Of a DNA stretch of 64,000 bases, positions 8,128 through 17,527 are shown piece after piece. The position numbers were made by a program, and so were the translations under genes. The notes under the pieces are model-generated. The model saw only the letters and a list, made by a program, of their open reading frames with translations. It did no database searches and was not told the DNA's origin. The DNA is taken from positions 62,001 through 126,000 of the forward strand of contig NZ_HG315691.1 in assembly GCF_000455345.1 (NCBI RefSeq), in the 5' to 3' direction. Every line of letters starts with the position of its first letter. Positions within the stretch are counted from its first letter, which is position 1. This stretch comes from Halopiger goleimassiliensis (lineage in GTDB: Archaea > Halobacteriota > Halobacteria > Halobacteriales > Natrialbaceae).

Positions 8128-8910
8128 TCAGCAATCGATCGGCTCGGCTGCGGACGGCTCGTCGATGGTGTCGTCGCCCCGGCGGATCTCCGATTCGGAG
8201 ACGAAGTACGTCCCAAAGTGGCTGTAGTGCACGTACTCACTGACGATTTCACGGCGAGCCTCGAGGATCGCCCCGTCGTGTTCGAAGCGGACCGGGTCGG
8301 TTTCCCAGTCGTCGTCGAGTTCGAACGCGTCGCCGGCGACGTCGAGGAACGCGTCGACGGTCTCTTCGTACTCCTCGTGCTCGTAACTCAGTAGCCTCGC
8401 TGTGTTCGTCTCGCCGTTCGCGACCGCCGTAGTGCGTTCGTTGAACGTCTCGAGGTCGGCAAGGGGTTTCTCGTCGGTCGCGGGGTGGTCGGCCGACTCG
8501 TCGGGATCGTCGACCGATCGAATCGTGAGTTGCTCACCGTGCTCCACTTCGTAGCCCCAGAACGTCCCGACCCTGGCCATAACCCACTCGTCGTCGTACT
8601 CCTCGACGGAGTGAACGCGGGGCGCTATCGAAATGAGGTCACTGACGGTCTCGTCCGCCTCGAGTTCGTCTTCGCCCGGCAGTTCGTCGTGCCGTTCGAT
8701 GTGGGCGATTTCGCAGGCCTGAATCCGGGATTCCGAGACGTCCGCCGGAGTGAACGAGTTGCTGTCGGTCGATTCGTCCTCGGGACCGCCCTCGTCGTTG
8801 GTTTCGGCCGCGTCGTCAGCACCAGTCGACACCTGGTCCCGGACGGCGGTACAGCCTGCCACCGCAGGGGTGGAAACGGCGAGCGACGCGAGCAGGGACC
8901 GTCTGTTCAT
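8128..8910 (-). CDS. Predicted Tat-exported lipoprotein
   Basis: A 260-aa secreted protein. The N-terminus MNRRSLLASLAVSTPAVAGC has a twin-arginine pair, a hydrophobic stretch and a lipobox ending at C20, so export by Tat and lipid anchoring to the outer face of the membrane are expected. An Asp/Glu/Ser-rich linker follows (about residues 30-55), then an acidic globular domain of unknown family. I chose the ATG at 8908-8910 because the frame extends upstream without signal-like character and would bury the signal peptide. It is convergent with the RNA ligase gene. Confidence 0.75.
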   Translation of the reverse strand: MNRRSLLASLAVSTPAVAGCTAVRDQVSTGADDAAETNDEGGPEDESTDSNSFTPADVSESRIQACEIAHIERHDELPGEDELEADETVSDLISIAPRVHSVEEYDDEWVMARVGTFWGYEVEHGEQLTIRSVDDPDESADHPATDEKPLADLETFNERTTAVANGETNTARLLSYEHEEYEETVDAFLDVAGDAFELDDDWETDPVRFEHDGAILEARREIVSEYVHYSHFGTYFVSESEIRRGDDTIDEPSAAEPIDC

Positions 8911-8987: not shown

Positions 8988-9659
8988 TCACCGCGCGGCT
9001 ATCGACTCGATTCGATCGCTGCCTGCCTCGACGTAGCCGCCGTGGTAGCAGACGACGTGATCGATCTCGAGGTCGGCGAGGCGGGCGACCGACTCGTAGG
9101 CGCGATCCAGGTCAGGCGTGAACTCGGGTTTCGGTCCCGCGAGCGGTCCGTCGCCGTCGGCCACGAGCGCGTCGCCGGCGATCAGGAGGTTCCCATCAGG
9201 GAAGTACAGCGAGACGTGACCGGGCGCGTGGCCGGGCGTCGCGACGACCTCCATCGGACCGGCGACCGTCGGGAACCGAACGCCGTCGGCGAGTTCCAGG
9301 TCGACCGTCACCGGGGTATAGCCGTCGCCGCCCTTGATCGGGTCGCGATCTCCCCGAACGTACGGTGCCTCGTCGCAGTGTGTGGCGACGACCGCGTCCG
9401 TGTACTCGAGCAGTTCCGCGAGGCCGGCCACGTGGTCGCCGTCGTGGTGAGTACACAGCACCAGCCACACGTCCTCGAGCGCGTACCCGATGCTCTCGAG
9501 GTGGACGCGGAGGTCACCGACGGCTCCTTCGGGGCCAACGTCGAGCAAGACGAGTCCGCGGTCGGTTTCGACGACCGACGGCGTGAGGGTGATCTCGCGG
9601 CCACCGTACTCGGTCGTGATCGGAAGCGCGTGGACTCCTGCGTCGTCACGGTCGCTCAT
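8988..9659 (-). CDS. Metallo-beta-lactamase-fold hydrolase
   Basis: A 223-aa zinc-dependent hydrolase of the glyoxalase II/RNase Z superfamily. The metal-binding motif reads THHDGDHVAG (H71, D73, D75, H76): the second His of the usual HxHxDH is Asp, a variant seen in some members. Later ligands are likely in ATPGHAPGHVSLYF, in LLIAGDAL and in the C-terminal CYHGG. Substrate unknown. The start at 9657-9659 (MSDRDDAGVHALPIT) is preferred: the open frame continues 89 codons upstream, but through the promoter of the divergent gene at 9808. Confidence 0.85.
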   Translation of the reverse strand: MSDRDDAGVHALPITTEYGGREITLTPSVVETDRGLVLLDVGPEGAVGDLRVHLESIGYALEDVWLVLCTHHDGDHVAGLAELLEYTDAVVATHCDEAPYVRGDRDPIKGGDGYTPVTVDLELADGVRFPTVAGPMEVVATPGHAPGHVSLYFPDGNLLIAGDALVADGDGPLAGPKPEFTPDLDRAYESVARLADLEIDHVVCYHGGYVEAGSDRIESIAAR

Positions 9660-9768: not shown

Positions 9769-9776
9769 TTTATATA
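9769..9776 (+). promoter_or_regulatory. TATA box for the terpene-synthase-like gene
   Basis: TTTATATA, the clearest TATA box in this part of the window, 32 bases before the ATG at 9808. It supports a start at 9808 or slightly later rather than far upstream. Confidence 0.6.
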
Positions 9777-9807: not shown

Positions 9808-10797
9808 ATGCAACGTGGCCGTCCCCTCTCGCCGCCGGAGAACGTGACCGATCCGATCGACCGAAGCCAGCCGCTCCCTGACGACCTGCTCCCGATCGCC
9901 GACGAGTACGATGCGGTCGTCGGCATCCGAGACCGATCGCTCTGGCAGTGGCTCTACCACGTCTTCCCGGCGTTCAGGCTCTCCTGCGTCGACGAGGATC
10001 GGCGTCGAACGACTCGTGAGATGAAACTGCTGCTGTCGGTGTACGTCACCCTCACGGACGACGTCGCCGAACGTCACGGTGACCGGGCGACGTTCGACGA
10101 ACTCGCGACGATCCCCTTCGAGCGTTCGCGGGTCGATCCCGAACGGCCCGCCGTAGACGGCGACGTGATCCGATTCGCCCGTCGACTGTGGAACCGGTTC
10201 CGAACGCTGTACGACCGGTGTCCGCGCAGCGACGAGCTCGACCGCCTGTTGCGCTTCGACCTGCGACAGGTGTTGCGCGCGATCGAGTACTCGTCGCTCC
10301 TCGAGCGCCAGCCAGCCCTCCTCTCCACGCGGGAACTGTGGGAACACGACGTCCACAACATGGTCGTCTTCTGTTACGCGGACGTCGACCTCGCGGCCGG
10401 ACGGCCGTTCGAGACGAGCGACCTGGCGACGCTTCGTGACCTCTGTGCGCACACCCAGCGGATGGCCCGGATCGGCAACTGGATCGCCTCCTGGGAACGG
10501 GAACTCCACGACGGCGACTGTAGCTCCGGCGTCGTCGCCCGCGCACTCGAGACGGGGGTGATCACGCGAGGTGATATCCGGGCGATTCAGCGGGAGCCGA
10601 CCGCCGAGACCGTCGGACCGATCGTCGACGCGATCGACGACTCCAGCGTCGAAACGGCGCTACTCGAGCGGTGGTACGCCGAATACGACGCGGCGTCGCG
10701 GATCGTTCCCTCGCTCGAGTCCGTCGACGGTGCGTCGTATCTCGACGGGTTCGAGACGATCCTTCGCTCGCACCTCGCAGTACGGGGAGAGGTGTAA
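9808..10797 (+). CDS. Class I terpene-synthase-like protein
   Basis: A 329-aa, mostly helical acidic protein. Two class I terpene synthase signatures are visible at normal spacing. The first is an Asp-rich motif, DDVAE (residues 84-88). The second, about 140 residues later, is NWIASWERE, fitting the NxxxSxxxE metal-binding triad with N224, S228 and E232; it is followed by LHDGD, as in many cyclases. An Arg near 175 lies about 50 residues before the triad, roughly where the diphosphate sensor occurs. The usual C-terminal Arg-Tyr pair is not obvious; the protein ends shortly after a YLDGFETILRSHL segment. These would bind Mg2+ and an isoprenyl diphosphate in the cytoplasm. An alternative GTG start is at 9844. 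It may equally be a divergent isoprenoid-synthase-fold protein with another reaction. No neighbouring gene belongs obviously to isoprenoid metabolism. Confidence 0.6.
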   Translation: MQRGRPLSPPENVTDPIDRSQPLPDDLLPIADEYDAVVGIRDRSLWQWLYHVFPAFRLSCVDEDRRRTTREMKLLLSVYVTLTDDVAERHGDRATFDELATIPFERSRVDPERPAVDGDVIRFARRLWNRFRTLYDRCPRSDELDRLLRFDLRQVLRAIEYSSLLERQPALLSTRELWEHDVHNMVVFCYADVDLAAGRPFETSDLATLRDLCAHTQRMARIGNWIASWERELHDGDCSSGVVARALETGVITRGDIRAIQREPTAETVGPIVDAIDDSSVETALLERWYAEYDAASRIVPSLESVDGASYLDGFETILRSHLAVRGEV

Positions 10798-10833: not shown

Positions 10834-12036
10834 TCAGCCCAGAACGGCGTCGATCGCCCCCTCGAGGTCGGCAATCAGGTCGTCGACGTGTTCGACGCCG
10901 ACGGAGACGCGGATCAAGCCGTCGGTGAGGCCGGCCTCGAGCCGTTCCTCGCGGGGGATCGCGGCGTGGGTCATCGGCGCGGGCTGTTCGATCAGGCTCT
11001 CGACGCCGCCCAGACTCTCCGCGAGGGTGAAGACCTCGGTGTTCGAGACGACCTCGCTCGTCTCCTCGAGGCTGGCGTCGAGTTCGAAGCTCAGCATGCC
11101 GCCGAAGTCGTCCATCTGCTGGCGGGCGATCTCGTGACCGGGGTGACTCTCGAGACCGGGGTAGTACACCCGCTCGACCTCCGGGTGGTCCTGGAGCCAC
11201 TCGGCTATCGCGCGGGCGTTCTCGCAGTGGCGGTCCATGCGGACGGGGAGCGTCTTGGTACCCCGGAGGACGAGGAACGACTCGAAGGGGCCGGGCGTCG
11301 CTCCGACGGCGTTCTGGTAGAAGCCGAACCGCTCGTCGAGGTTCTCGTCGTTGGTCAGGAGCGCGCCGCCGACGACGTCCGAGTGGCCGCCGAGGTATTT
11401 GGTGAGCGAGTGCGAGACGACGTCCGCGCCGAGATCGAGGGGGCGCTGGAGGTACGGCGTCGCGAACGTGTTGTCGATCGCGCAGAGGGCGTCGTGCTCG
11501 TGGGCGATTTCGGCCGCACCCTCGATATCGACGATCGACATGAGCGGGTTCGTCGGCGTCTCGAGCCAGAGCAGTTCCGTCTCCTCGCGGAAGGCGTCAG
11601 CGATGGCGTCGAGATCGGTCATGTCGACGAAGGAGAACTCGAGGTCGTAGTCCTCGTACACCTGGGTGAAGATACGGTGGGTCCCGCCGTAGACGTCGTT
11701 GCCCGTCACGACGTGGTCGCCCGCCTCGAGCAGATTGAGCACGGTGTTGATCGAGGCCATCCCGCTGGCGAACGCGCGGCCGTGGGCGGCGTTCTCGAGG
11801 CTCGCGAGGTTCTCCTCGAGGTCCGTCCGGGTCGGATTTCCGGTCCGGGAGTACTCGTAGCCGCGGTGGTCGCCCGGGGCGTCCTGCTTATACGTGGAGT
11901 TGGCGTGGATCGGCGTCATCAACGCGCCCGTCTCGGGATCAGGCTCCTGGCCGGCGTGGATCGACCGCGTCTCGAACCGAAAGCCGTCCGGGAACCGAGC
12001 GTCCTGCTCCTGCGCCTGACCGTTCGAATCGTCCAT
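10834..12036 (-). CDS. Cystathionine gamma-synthase/lyase (PLP)
   Basis: A 400-aa Cys/Met-metabolism PLP enzyme interconverting homoserine esters, cysteine, cystathionine and homocysteine. The PLP lysine lies in SHSLTKYLGGHSD (K213). Other family blocks are YSRTGNPTR (residues 62-70), GMASI, DNTFATPYLQRPLDLGAD and the C-terminal SLGGVESLIEQPAPMTHA. Length is normal. Synthase and lyase cannot be separated by eye; haloarchaeal versions are often annotated as cystathionine gamma-synthase or -lyase. cysK and thrC, which act in related steps, are in the same window but 43 kb away. It converges with the terpene-synthase-like gene, leaving 36 bases. Confidence 0.92.
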   Translation of the reverse strand: MDDSNGQAQEQDARFPDGFRFETRSIHAGQEPDPETGALMTPIHANSTYKQDAPGDHRGYEYSRTGNPTRTDLEENLASLENAAHGRAFASGMASINTVLNLLEAGDHVVTGNDVYGGTHRIFTQVYEDYDLEFSFVDMTDLDAIADAFREETELLWLETPTNPLMSIVDIEGAAEIAHEHDALCAIDNTFATPYLQRPLDLGADVVSHSLTKYLGGHSDVVGGALLTNDENLDERFGFYQNAVGATPGPFESFLVLRGTKTLPVRMDRHCENARAIAEWLQDHPEVERVYYPGLESHPGHEIARQQMDDFGGMLSFELDASLEETSEVVSNTEVFTLAESLGGVESLIEQPAPMTHAAIPREERLEAGLTDGLIRVSVGVEHVDDLIADLEGAIDAVLG

Positions 12037-14492: not shown

Positions 14493-16484
14493 CTACAGCG
14501 TGTCGACGTCGAGGATCATCACGACTTCCCCTTCGCCGAGCACCGACGCCCCGCTGATCCCCGGGGCACCGCTCAGAACGCCTTCGAAGGGCTTGATGAC
14601 GACTTCTTCCTGTCCGACGACGTCGGAACAGCGCAGACAGACCTGTCGGACGGAGTCTTTGATGCGGACGACCATGTCGTCGTCACCGACCTCGGTGTCG
14701 GGGACGTCGAGGCGATCAGAGAGCGACAGGAGCGGATAGACCTGGTCGTCGTGAGTGATCGTCGCCCGTCCCTCGACGGATTCGACGGTGACGTCCTCGA
14801 GTTCCGAGATTTCGTCGATGTTCTTGATCGGGATGCCGTACTTCTCGTCGCCGACGGTCACGAAGAGGACGCGGACGATGGCGACGCTGACGGGTAGCAT
14901 CAGCGTGACGCTCGTACCGGCTCCGGGTTCGCTCTCGACGTTGATCGAGCCGTCGACGCTGCGGACGACCTGGTTGACGACGTCCATTCCGACGCCGCGG
15001 CCACTGACTTCGGTGACCTCCTCGGTCGTCGAGAAGCCGGGGTGGAAGATCAGGTCGTACACCTCCGAGTCGTCGAGCATGCGACCCTCTTCCTCGGTGA
15101 TGACGCCCTGTTCGATCGCCTTCTCCTTGATGCGCTCGACGTCGAGTCCGCTGCCGTCGTCCTGGACGGTCACGGAGACGCGGTCGCGTTCGCGCTCCCC
15201 GATGAGCTTGATCGTCCCCTCGCGGGGTTTGCCCTTCTTCTCGCGTTCTTCGGGCGGTTCGATCCCGTGATCGACCGCGTTCCGGATGAGGTGCATCAGG
15301 GGATCGCCCAGTTCGTTGAGGATCGAACGATCCATCTCGATGTCGACCCCCTCCATCTGGAAGTCGATCTCCTTGCCCTGCTTGCGGGAGATGTCGCGAA
15401 CGACCCGCGGGAAGTTGCCGACGATCTTCTTCAGCGGCACCAGGCGGATCTCGAGGACGGTATCCTGCAGGCTCGAGGTGATCTTGCCGTGCTCCTCGAG
15501 TTCGTCCTCGGCCTCGACGAGGTCGTTCTCCTCGATGATCTTCCGGAGTTTGATCCGGCTTGTGACCATCTCCTCGACCTGGTTGTACAGCTGGTCGATC
15601 TGCTCGACGTCGACCCGGATCGACTCGACTTCCTGACTATCGTGGGTCAAACTCGAACCCGAATCCGACGTCTCGTCGTCCTCCTCCTCGTCGGCGAACG
15701 CCGCCTCGACCTCGGCGGTCACTCGCGCGACCGACGCGTCCTCGACGTACCGATTGTCCTGGAAGAACCCCTCGACGTCCGCGGCGGAGACGTCCTCCTC
15801 GGCACTCACGTAGAGGTCGAACGAGCCGTCGAACTCGCCGTCTTCGATCCCTTCCTCGTCGGGAACGGTCCGGAGGCGTTCGTACTCGTCGTCGGCCGCG
15901 TCGAGGACGAACATCGCGTCGACGTGTTCGGACCCGGTCTGTTCGAACTCGAGGACCGCCTGGAAGACCTCGCCTGCGAACTCCTCGCCGACGTCCTCCG
16001 CGAGGTCCTCGACGGGGACCTCGCTCGCCGGCTCGATGCCGTCGTCGCCGGCGTCGTCGTCGGCCGTCGCGTCTTCGTCGGCCATCCCGCTCTCACCGTC
16101 CTCGATCGAGGCGCGGATCTCCTCGATCGTCGCCCCGGGATCGGTCTTCGTCTCGCCGTCGTCCGAGATCTCCCGGACCATCTGCTCGAGCTGGTCGACC
16201 CCGCTGAAGATGAGGTCCATCCGCTCGCCGGTGACCGCGAGTTCGCCGTCGCGGATGCAGTCGAGCAGGTCCTCGACGGCGTGGGCCATGTTGCTCGCGT
16301 CGGTGTAGCCCATCACGCCGAAGTTGCCCTTGAGGTTGTGCGCGACCCGGAACACCGTCTCGATGGCGTCGGAGTTCTCCGGATCGTCGGCCTCCTCGAG
16401 CTCGAGCAGGGCGTTGTTGAGCGTCTGGATGTCCTCCTGGCTCTCCTGGACGAAGGTGCTGGTGGGGTCGCTCACGCCGACCAC
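14493..16484 (-). CDS. cheA: Chemotaxis histidine kinase CheA
   Basis: A 663-aa sensor kinase that phosphorylates CheY and CheB in response to transducers. Domain order: Hpt (phosphoacceptor H49 in VAHNLKGNFG), an acidic linker, a CheY-binding-like middle region, P3 dimerisation helices (about residues 290-350), the ATPase with HLIRNAVDHGIEPPEER (N box), a GSGLD G1 box and GRGVGMDVVN G2 box, and a C-terminal CheW-like domain. Two GTG starts are possible, at 16484 and 16475. The latter overlaps the cheB stop as GTGA, so translational coupling with cheB is likely either way. No cheR, cheC or cheD follows, unlike some haloarchaeal clusters. Confidence 0.95.
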   Translation of the reverse strand: MVGVSDPTSTFVQESQEDIQTLNNALLELEEADDPENSDAIETVFRVAHNLKGNFGVMGYTDASNMAHAVEDLLDCIRDGELAVTGERMDLIFSGVDQLEQMVREISDDGETKTDPGATIEEIRASIEDGESGMADEDATADDDAGDDGIEPASEVPVEDLAEDVGEEFAGEVFQAVLEFEQTGSEHVDAMFVLDAADDEYERLRTVPDEEGIEDGEFDGSFDLYVSAEEDVSAADVEGFFQDNRYVEDASVARVTAEVEAAFADEEEDDETSDSGSSLTHDSQEVESIRVDVEQIDQLYNQVEEMVTSRIKLRKIIEENDLVEAEDELEEHGKITSSLQDTVLEIRLVPLKKIVGNFPRVVRDISRKQGKEIDFQMEGVDIEMDRSILNELGDPLMHLIRNAVDHGIEPPEEREKKGKPREGTIKLIGERERDRVSVTVQDDGSGLDVERIKEKAIEQGVITEEEGRMLDDSEVYDLIFHPGFSTTEEVTEVSGRGVGMDVVNQVVRSVDGSINVESEPGAGTSVTLMLPVSVAIVRVLFVTVGDEKYGIPIKNIDEISELEDVTVESVEGRATITHDDQVYPLLSLSDRLDVPDTEVGDDDMVVRIKDSVRQVCLRCSDVVGQEEVVIKPFEGVLSGAPGISGASVLGEGEVVMILDVDTL

Positions 16485-17527
16485 CCCATGAAGGCGTTCG
16501 TGATGCCCTCGGCGATCCGCCCTTTCGGCAGTACCATGTCGACGTCGACCTGTTCGGCGGCGACTTTCGGCATGCCGTAGACGCGGGAGGTCTCCTCGTC
16601 CTGGACGATGGCCTTCCCGCCGGCGTCCTTGATCGCCCCGAGGCCGGCCGCCCCGTCGGCACCCATGCCGGTCAGGACGACGCCCGCCAGGTTACCGGTG
16701 ACCGTCTCGGCTGCCGTCTCCATCGTCACGTCGATCGCCGGTTTGACGTTGTGTCGTTCGGGGCCGTCGTCAGTGTCGACGACGACCTGGCCGTTCGTGA
16801 ATCCGGTCACCGCGAGGTGGGTGCCGCCTTTCGCGAGCACGCCCTCGCCCGGGCCGACTCGTTCGCGGCCGGAGGATTCCCGGATGTCGTACTCGGTTCG
16901 CTCGTCGAGACGCGATGCGAAGCGTTTCGTGTAGTGATCTGCCATGTGTTGTACCACCAGAATTCGTAACCCCGCTCGCTCGGGGAGATCGGAGAGCACT
17001 TGTTCGACGACTCGGGGGCCGCCGGTCGATGCTCCGATGACCAGCGTCGGATCGTTCGGGAACTCGTCGTCCGGATCGACGGTCGGCGTCGGGGATGGGC
17101 GGGACTCGGTCCGCTCGGGCCGTTCGGTACCGACGTCGGCTTCGGCGACTGCCTGGACGCGTTCGACGATGACGTCCTGTCGACTCCAGATGTCGACCGA
17201 GTTGTCGCCCGAGGGTTTGGCCATGAAGTCCACGGCACCGGCCTCGAGTGCCTCGAACGTCGCGTCCGCGTTCTTCGTCGTGTGCGAACTGATGACCAGC
17301 ATCGGCGTCGGGTTCTCCGCCATCACCCGCTCGATGACCTCGTGGCCGGTCAGCCTCGGCATCTGTATATCGATCGTCGCGACGTCCGGTTCGAGGTCCG
17401 CGATCATCTCCACGGCCTCGACGCCGTCTTTCGCGCGGCCGACGACGTCGATGCCGCCGTCCTCGAGGATCTTGCCGAGGGTCTCCCGCATTACGGCGGA
17501 GTCGTCGGCGATTACTGCTCGGACCAT
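16472..17527 (-). CDS. cheB: Chemotaxis methylesterase CheB
   Basis: A 351-aa response regulator/methylesterase that removes methyl groups from, and can deamidate, transducer glutamates during adaptation. The N-terminal receiver has D8-D9, phosphoacceptor D53 (TIDIQMPRLTG) and a Lys in DFMAKPSGD. After a linker, the esterase domain shows the catalytic triad context: GASTGGP (Ser), VQHMADHYT (His) and LTGMGADGAAG (Asp). The ATG at 17525-17527 shares its A with the stop of the small upstream ORF (TGATG), and the 3' end overlaps cheA, so the three genes form one operon. Confidence 0.95.
   Translation of the reverse strand: MVRAVIADDSAVMRETLGKILEDGGIDVVGRAKDGVEAVEMIADLEPDVATIDIQMPRLTGHEVIERVMAENPTPMLVISSHTTKNADATFEALEAGAVDFMAKPSGDNSVDIWSRQDVIVERVQAVAEADVGTERPERTESRPSPTPTVDPDDEFPNDPTLVIGASTGGPRVVEQVLSDLPERAGLRILVVQHMADHYTKRFASRLDERTEYDIRESSGRERVGPGEGVLAKGGTHLAVTGFTNGQVVVDTDDGPERHNVKPAIDVTMETAAETVTGNLAGVVLTGMGADGAAGLGAIKDAGGKAIVQDEETSRVYGMPKVAAEQVDVDMVLPKGRIAEGITNAFMGWSA

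Follow-up and report, generated by a model that had tools for sequence, protein, structure and literature searches.

Most known class I terpene synthases come from plants, fungi, and bacteria, and archaeal membranes are built wholly from isoprenoids. Within a 64,000-nucleotide stretch of the Halopiger goleimassiliensis genome (the window), one gene raises the question of whether this archaeon encodes a class I terpene synthase, as a first-pass annotation had proposed, and of what such an enzyme would do. The gene and its upstream element are as follows:

Positions 9808..10797, plus strand: class I terpene synthase-like protein of 329 aa (ORF, Pfam, AlphaFold2, Foldseek, conservation, and hhalign).
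Positions 9769-9776, plus strand: TATA-like element TTTATATA, 32-39 nt before the ATG (consensus match only).

The open frame at 9808-10797 comprises 329 codons plus a stop, and the longest in-frame ORF, starting at 9490, would encode 435 aa. Since a codon-usage gene model puts the start at 9808 and most relatives are close to the window protein in length (about 322-339 aa), 9808 is likely the start codon, and the longer ORF is unlikely. While the strong TATA box of the first-pass annotation is indeed present upstream, a TATA-like hexamer was found within 70 bp upstream in only 25 of 76 relatives, which rules it out as a family trait.

Relatives of the gene are spread across haloarchaea and some methanogen-like lineages. 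Our search of 61 genomes, comprising the organism's own genome and those of its relatives, returned 18 carriers; an order-wide sample contained relatives in 119 of 392 genomes, distributed over 42 of 95 genera; and a phylum-wide sample added four families from beyond the order, one of which yielded just a marginal fragment. We infer that these outside families are methanogen-like. The family was not found in phage records. In a further family (f21), copies are truncated or disrupted and some lack the motifs; broken, shortened, or motif-less copies were also recorded in genomes G390, G323, G211, G214, and G098 and at loci L147, L148, and L150. Such decayed copies suggest repeated gene loss in some lineages. 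Multiple copies also occur, either as tandem duplicate terpene synthase genes (L085:5826-8211) or as two or three separate copies per genome (G252, G140, and G259).

Class I enzymes are defined by a DDxxD/E motif and an NSE/DTE triad (PMC10563020). The window protein contains both an aspartate-rich DDVAE motif and, about 140 residues downstream (motif spacing, 140 residues), the N224/S228/E232 triad, followed by the segment H234-D-G-D237, all as the first-pass annotation had described them:

Positions 10057..10071, plus strand: putative first metal-binding motif, DDVAE (residues 84-88), at the C-terminal end of a predicted helix (63-88).
Positions 10468..10470, plus strand: R221, three residues before N224, invariant (75/75), a candidate diphosphate-binding basic residue.
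Positions 10477..10503, plus strand: putative second metal-binding motif, NWIASWERE (N224, S228, and E232), within a predicted helix (204-234).
Positions 10516..10518, plus strand: D237 of the (E/D)GD segment after the NSE motif, invariant (75/75).

That annotation had also leaned on the exact class I spacing of the two motifs. Both are present and in register, but the pair alone is not diagnostic: it occurred by chance in a tight form in 3, and in a loose form in 6, of 342 other genes (250-450 aa, from the sampled loci), and with about 1-2% of similar-sized genes carrying it, it is weak stand-alone evidence. What makes the pair real is its conservation across relatives, which was counted over 75 full-length haloarchaeal members. 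D85, N224, S/T228, and E232 are present in all 75, position 84 is Asp in 72 and Asn in 3, and position 88 is Glu in 65 and Asp in 10. Consistent with this, intact methanogen-like members retain DDxxD and NxxxTxxxE. The residues singled out for checking by the annotation (D84, D85, N224, S228, and E232) are thus invariant or nearly so in the 75 orthologues, and the metal-binding motifs are kept in the intact methanogen-like members. R41, D194, R210, R221, W225, W229, and D237 are likewise invariant in the 75 members, and K73 and R231 are near-invariant. In a long-branched subclade (L065, L066, and L128; G259 and G132), NDLSD replaces DDxxE while the NSE-type motif is kept; one copy of this subclade adjoins a protoglobin-MCP transducer gene.

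The AlphaFold2 model of the window protein, built with 17 family members, is an alpha bundle (pLDDT 90.4; pTM 0.90), and its best 50 Foldseek matches in the PDB are all class I terpene synthases (E-values of 1.4e-5 to 8.9e-4), with Streptomyces diterpene and hydropyrene synthases at the top and moderate TM-scores of 0.5-0.6; the matches include a linalool/nerolidol synthase. A model of a methanogen-like member (pLDDT 91) gave best 50 Foldseek matches that are nearly all terpene synthases, the exception being one heptaprenyl diphosphate synthase at rank 45. Both proteins are thus predicted to adopt the isoprenoid-synthase alpha-bundle fold of the terpene-synthase branch, as the annotation had anticipated. 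Helices D and H are the expected places of the Asp-rich and NSE motifs, and in the model DDVAE and the NSE motif sit where these helices are expected.

Sequence comparisons were in line with the fold. PF19086 (Terpene_syn_C_2) matched all 17 members scanned, with a best E-value of 1.7e-7, presumably above the cut-off, and PF03936 matched 10 of the 17; the window protein alone scored 22.3 bits against PF19086, for which the curated cut-off is 23.7. With 12 Streptomyces clavuligerus terpene synthases, all encoded on plasmid pCLA1, as a yardstick, hhalign aligned the family end to end (E-value of 9e-5, 270 columns), placing DDVAE on DDHFD and NWIASWERE on NDVLSLEKE. Searches of the PDB gave no phmmer match for the single window protein and only weak matches for the family profile (best, Sat1646, with an E-value of 0.13), so sequence alone falls short of the solved structures, and no NCBIfam model matches the window protein. 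The computed basis thus consists of the predicted fold, the placement of the motifs and their almost complete conservation, kinship with bacterial terpene synthases, and the presence of substrate-making enzymes in the genome. From the predicted fold and the conserved, putatively metal-binding residues, we consider the gene product to be, in all probability, an archaeal class I terpene synthase of a divergent kind, the reading from which the first-pass annotation had set out.

The substrate of such an enzyme would be a prenyl diphosphate, the likeliest being GGPP (C20) supplied by membrane-lipid synthesis, and it would be held through Mg2+ bound by D84/D85/E88 in helix D and by N224/S228/E232 in helix H. 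Metal-assisted loss of the diphosphate would then generate a carbocation, which may undergo cyclisation or rearrangement within a pocket lined by aromatic residues, and proton loss or water uptake would release a diterpene-type hydrocarbon or alcohol. Because the organism's own genome contains three polyprenyl synthases, in addition to one phytoene synthase, it plausibly makes GGPP itself. The preference for C20 is a guess, prompted by lipid metabolism and by the presence of diterpene synthases near the top of the fold matches, since no prenyl synthase lies beside the synthase gene.

Comparison with bacterial class I terpene synthases (PF19086; 9m25, diterpene; 8b4m, hydropyrene; 9hqm, T-muurolol; and 7e4n, Sat1646) brings out both the textbook features of the family and its departures from them. 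The two groups share the alpha-bundle fold, the DDxxD/E motif (helix D) and NSE/T triad (helix H) in register, and a length of about 330 aa. In contrast, the family (i) is only 11-19% identical to the best bacterial structures, (ii) has a Trp (W225) in place of the Asp after the NSE Asn (NW rather than ND), (iii) has neither a conserved pyrophosphate-sensor Arg nor an RY pair, and (iv) has invariant residues of its own, namely R41, D194, R210, R221, W225, W229, and D237. Class I enzymes usually place three basic residues at the diphosphate, along with an effector triad (PMC10563020). The first-pass annotation had remarked on the lack of a clear C-terminal Arg-Tyr pair, and this holds: the window protein has S310-Y311 instead, positions that are not conserved in the 75 members, and while many members end in RG, R326 of R326-G327 is Arg in only 43 of 75. 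At position 178, which we take to be that of the pyrophosphate-sensor Arg (about 46 residues before the NSE Asn), Arg is not conserved among the 75 members (Glu in 18, Trp in 16, and Arg in 11), and the next triad positions vary as well (position 181, Asp in 42, Glu in 16, and Gly in 11; position 182, Ala, Ser, Val, or Thr). The fold and the metal site are independent of the pyrophosphate-sensor Arg. From the alignment, the invariant R41, R210, and R221 are candidate replacements for it, and these three, together with the near-invariant K73 and R231, are candidate diphosphate-contacting residues.

Since the family lacks a conserved pyrophosphate-sensor Arg and RY pair and has Trp after the NSE Asn, its ionisation step may be weak or follow a different chemistry. 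These same departures leave room for a non-cyclising class I enzyme with this fold, in which the ionised prenyl diphosphate would be quenched by water or an acceptor to give a linear alcohol (of the geranyllinalool type) or a prenylated small molecule. The linalool/nerolidol synthase among the Foldseek matches would fit such an enzyme, as would two terpene cyclases reported to work as aromatic prenyltransferases at basic pH (PMC7414894). However, the nearest folds are mainly cyclases, and the invariant W46, W48, W225, and W229 would fit an aromatic cation pocket; we therefore regard a non-cyclising enzyme as unlikely and retain a terpene synthase with a cyclic product as our working model.

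When and why such a synthase would be made is a question for its neighborhood, where the window itself offers little:

Positions 8988..9659, minus strand: divergently transcribed metallo-beta-lactamase-fold hydrolase, which adjoins the synthase in close relatives too (no operon).
Positions 10834..12036, minus strand: convergently transcribed Cys/Met metabolism PLP enzyme, which marks a locus shared with L059.

The synthase stands alone between these two genes, and, in agreement with the annotation, no isoprenoid gene lies beside it. An operon with either flanking gene is ruled out by their opposite strands and by the lineage-specific nature of the neighbors. At L059, a locus of the same family, the order is terpene synthase, FilR1-type regulator, HalOD1 protein, and PLP-enzyme gene. 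Because the same synthase-regulator-HalOD1 cluster is found at loci of two other families, the window clade probably lost the regulator/HalOD1 pair, and we favor this over the alternative of an insertion at L059; the orphan setting in the window thus looks like local loss or rearrangement. Elsewhere in the window, the minus strand carries adjacent, slightly overlapping CheA-like and CheB-like chemotaxis genes (14493-17527; assigned from sequence only), as well as a 260-aa acidic predicted lipoprotein (8128-8910) with a lipobox-like VAGC near its start and no Pfam match.

At other loci, in several arrangements and clades, the synthase adjoins genes for BAT regulators (PAS, GAF, and HTH_10), HalOD1 proteins, or histidine kinases. 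We quantified this linkage at 57 loci with synthases <70% identical, comparing immediate neighbors with genes four to six places away (a control set thinned by hand, mostly by dropping short genes, which would if anything raise its PAS counts). PAS domains were found in at least 16 of 114 immediate neighbors, as opposed to at most 2 of 140 distant genes (Fisher P = 8e-5, an optimistic value because the shared descent of neighborhoods stays in the counts). With P values that are optimistic for the same reason, BAT accounted for 11, and FilR1_middle for 9, of the 114 immediate neighbors, each as opposed to at most 2 of the 140 controls. A family search of the organism's own genome gave a background of five FilR1_middle, about 25 BAT, and about 25 HalOD1 genes. 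Moreover, a same-strand PAS sensor kinase gene adjoins the synthase at three Methanosarcina-like loci (L149, L152, and L154, the last judged from the sequence start only) and at one methanogen-like locus (L140).

Several members have a cytochrome P450 gene at a distance of at most two or three genes from the synthase. A deep clade (L064, L122, and L125; G140, G307, and G265) lies near a cytochrome P450 gene and a gene for a conserved 175-197 aa protein, which had no Pfam match in the one copy scanned. In the organism's own genome, the phytoene synthase gene has a BAT-type regulator gene (C1:2157201-2158856) on the same strand, a few hundred bases away, so that BAT is found next to a terpenoid gene for a second time.

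The linkage to PAS/BAT and FilR1-type regulators and to sensor kinases suggests dedicated sensory control of expression, and the neighborhood suggests regulated production, perhaps of a signal or a protective lipid. In Methanosaeta, FilR1 proper serves as the DNA-binding response regulator in a two-component system with a link to the synthesis of acyl homoserine lactones (PMC3991700); it has its middle domain in common with the regulators described here, which does not show terpene sensing. A tentative and, in our view, doubtful extension is that the synthase forms the enzymatic part of a terpenoid signaling system of haloarchaea and methanogens, in which the paired PAS/GAF BAT regulators, FilR1-type regulators, HalOD1 proteins, or PAS histidine kinases would sense the product or, on a stimulus, switch on the synthase.

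The same linkage, along with the missing canonical Arg residues and the degraded copies in some genomes, might instead be explained by a catalytically weak or dead protein of terpene-synthase fold that acts as a sensor for the neighboring regulators or binds to them. This is very improbable, because the putative metal-binding residues are almost always kept in the 75 diverse haloarchaeal and the intact methanogen-like members, and residue loss is confined to decayed-looking copies. Least credible of all is a relative of trans-prenyl diphosphate synthases or squalene/phytoene synthases, since, while the family shares a superfamily fold and Mg2+-diphosphate chemistry with the polyprenyl (PF00348) and phytoene (PF00494) synthases that the genome does contain, those enzymes have two Asp-rich motifs and no NSE motif, NxxxSxxxE stands here in place of a second DDxxD (neither this motif nor a PF00348 match was found in the window protein or the scanned members), there is no PF00494 match, no such enzyme is among the best 50 folds for the window protein, and there was no profile alignment to them (hhalign E-values of 0.019 over 43 columns for the own-genome prenyl synthases and 0.11 over 11 columns for the phytoene synthase). 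We thus return to a class I terpene synthase as the preferred reading.

Beyond the cellular enzymes, the best viral fold match, a weak one (E-value of 0.02), is the Orpheovirus terpene synthase (8jw3; BFVD A0A2I2L5I9), a giant-virus enzyme of very low identity to the family that is matched by the methanogen-like model too. Relatives are named hypothetical protein in six plasmid records. Judging by its title, a preprint on archaeal terpenoid biosynthesis via structure-based prediction (Samusevich et al., bioRxiv 10.1101/2024.01.29.577750, cited in PMC12797696) makes the same general claim, so archaeal terpene synthesis as such is apparently not new. As far as the literature was checked, what is new here is the definition of a divergent family, its spread to methanogen-like genomes, and its linkage to sensor genes.

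In summary, the presence of a conserved synthase family in methanogen-like families and in roughly 30% of the sampled haloarchaeal genomes points to unexplored archaeal chemistry, and archaea may make regulated terpene chemicals. The repeated pairing with sensors and regulators provides a concrete hypothesis on when the terpene synthase is made, which is testable in haloarchaeal hosts with good genetics.
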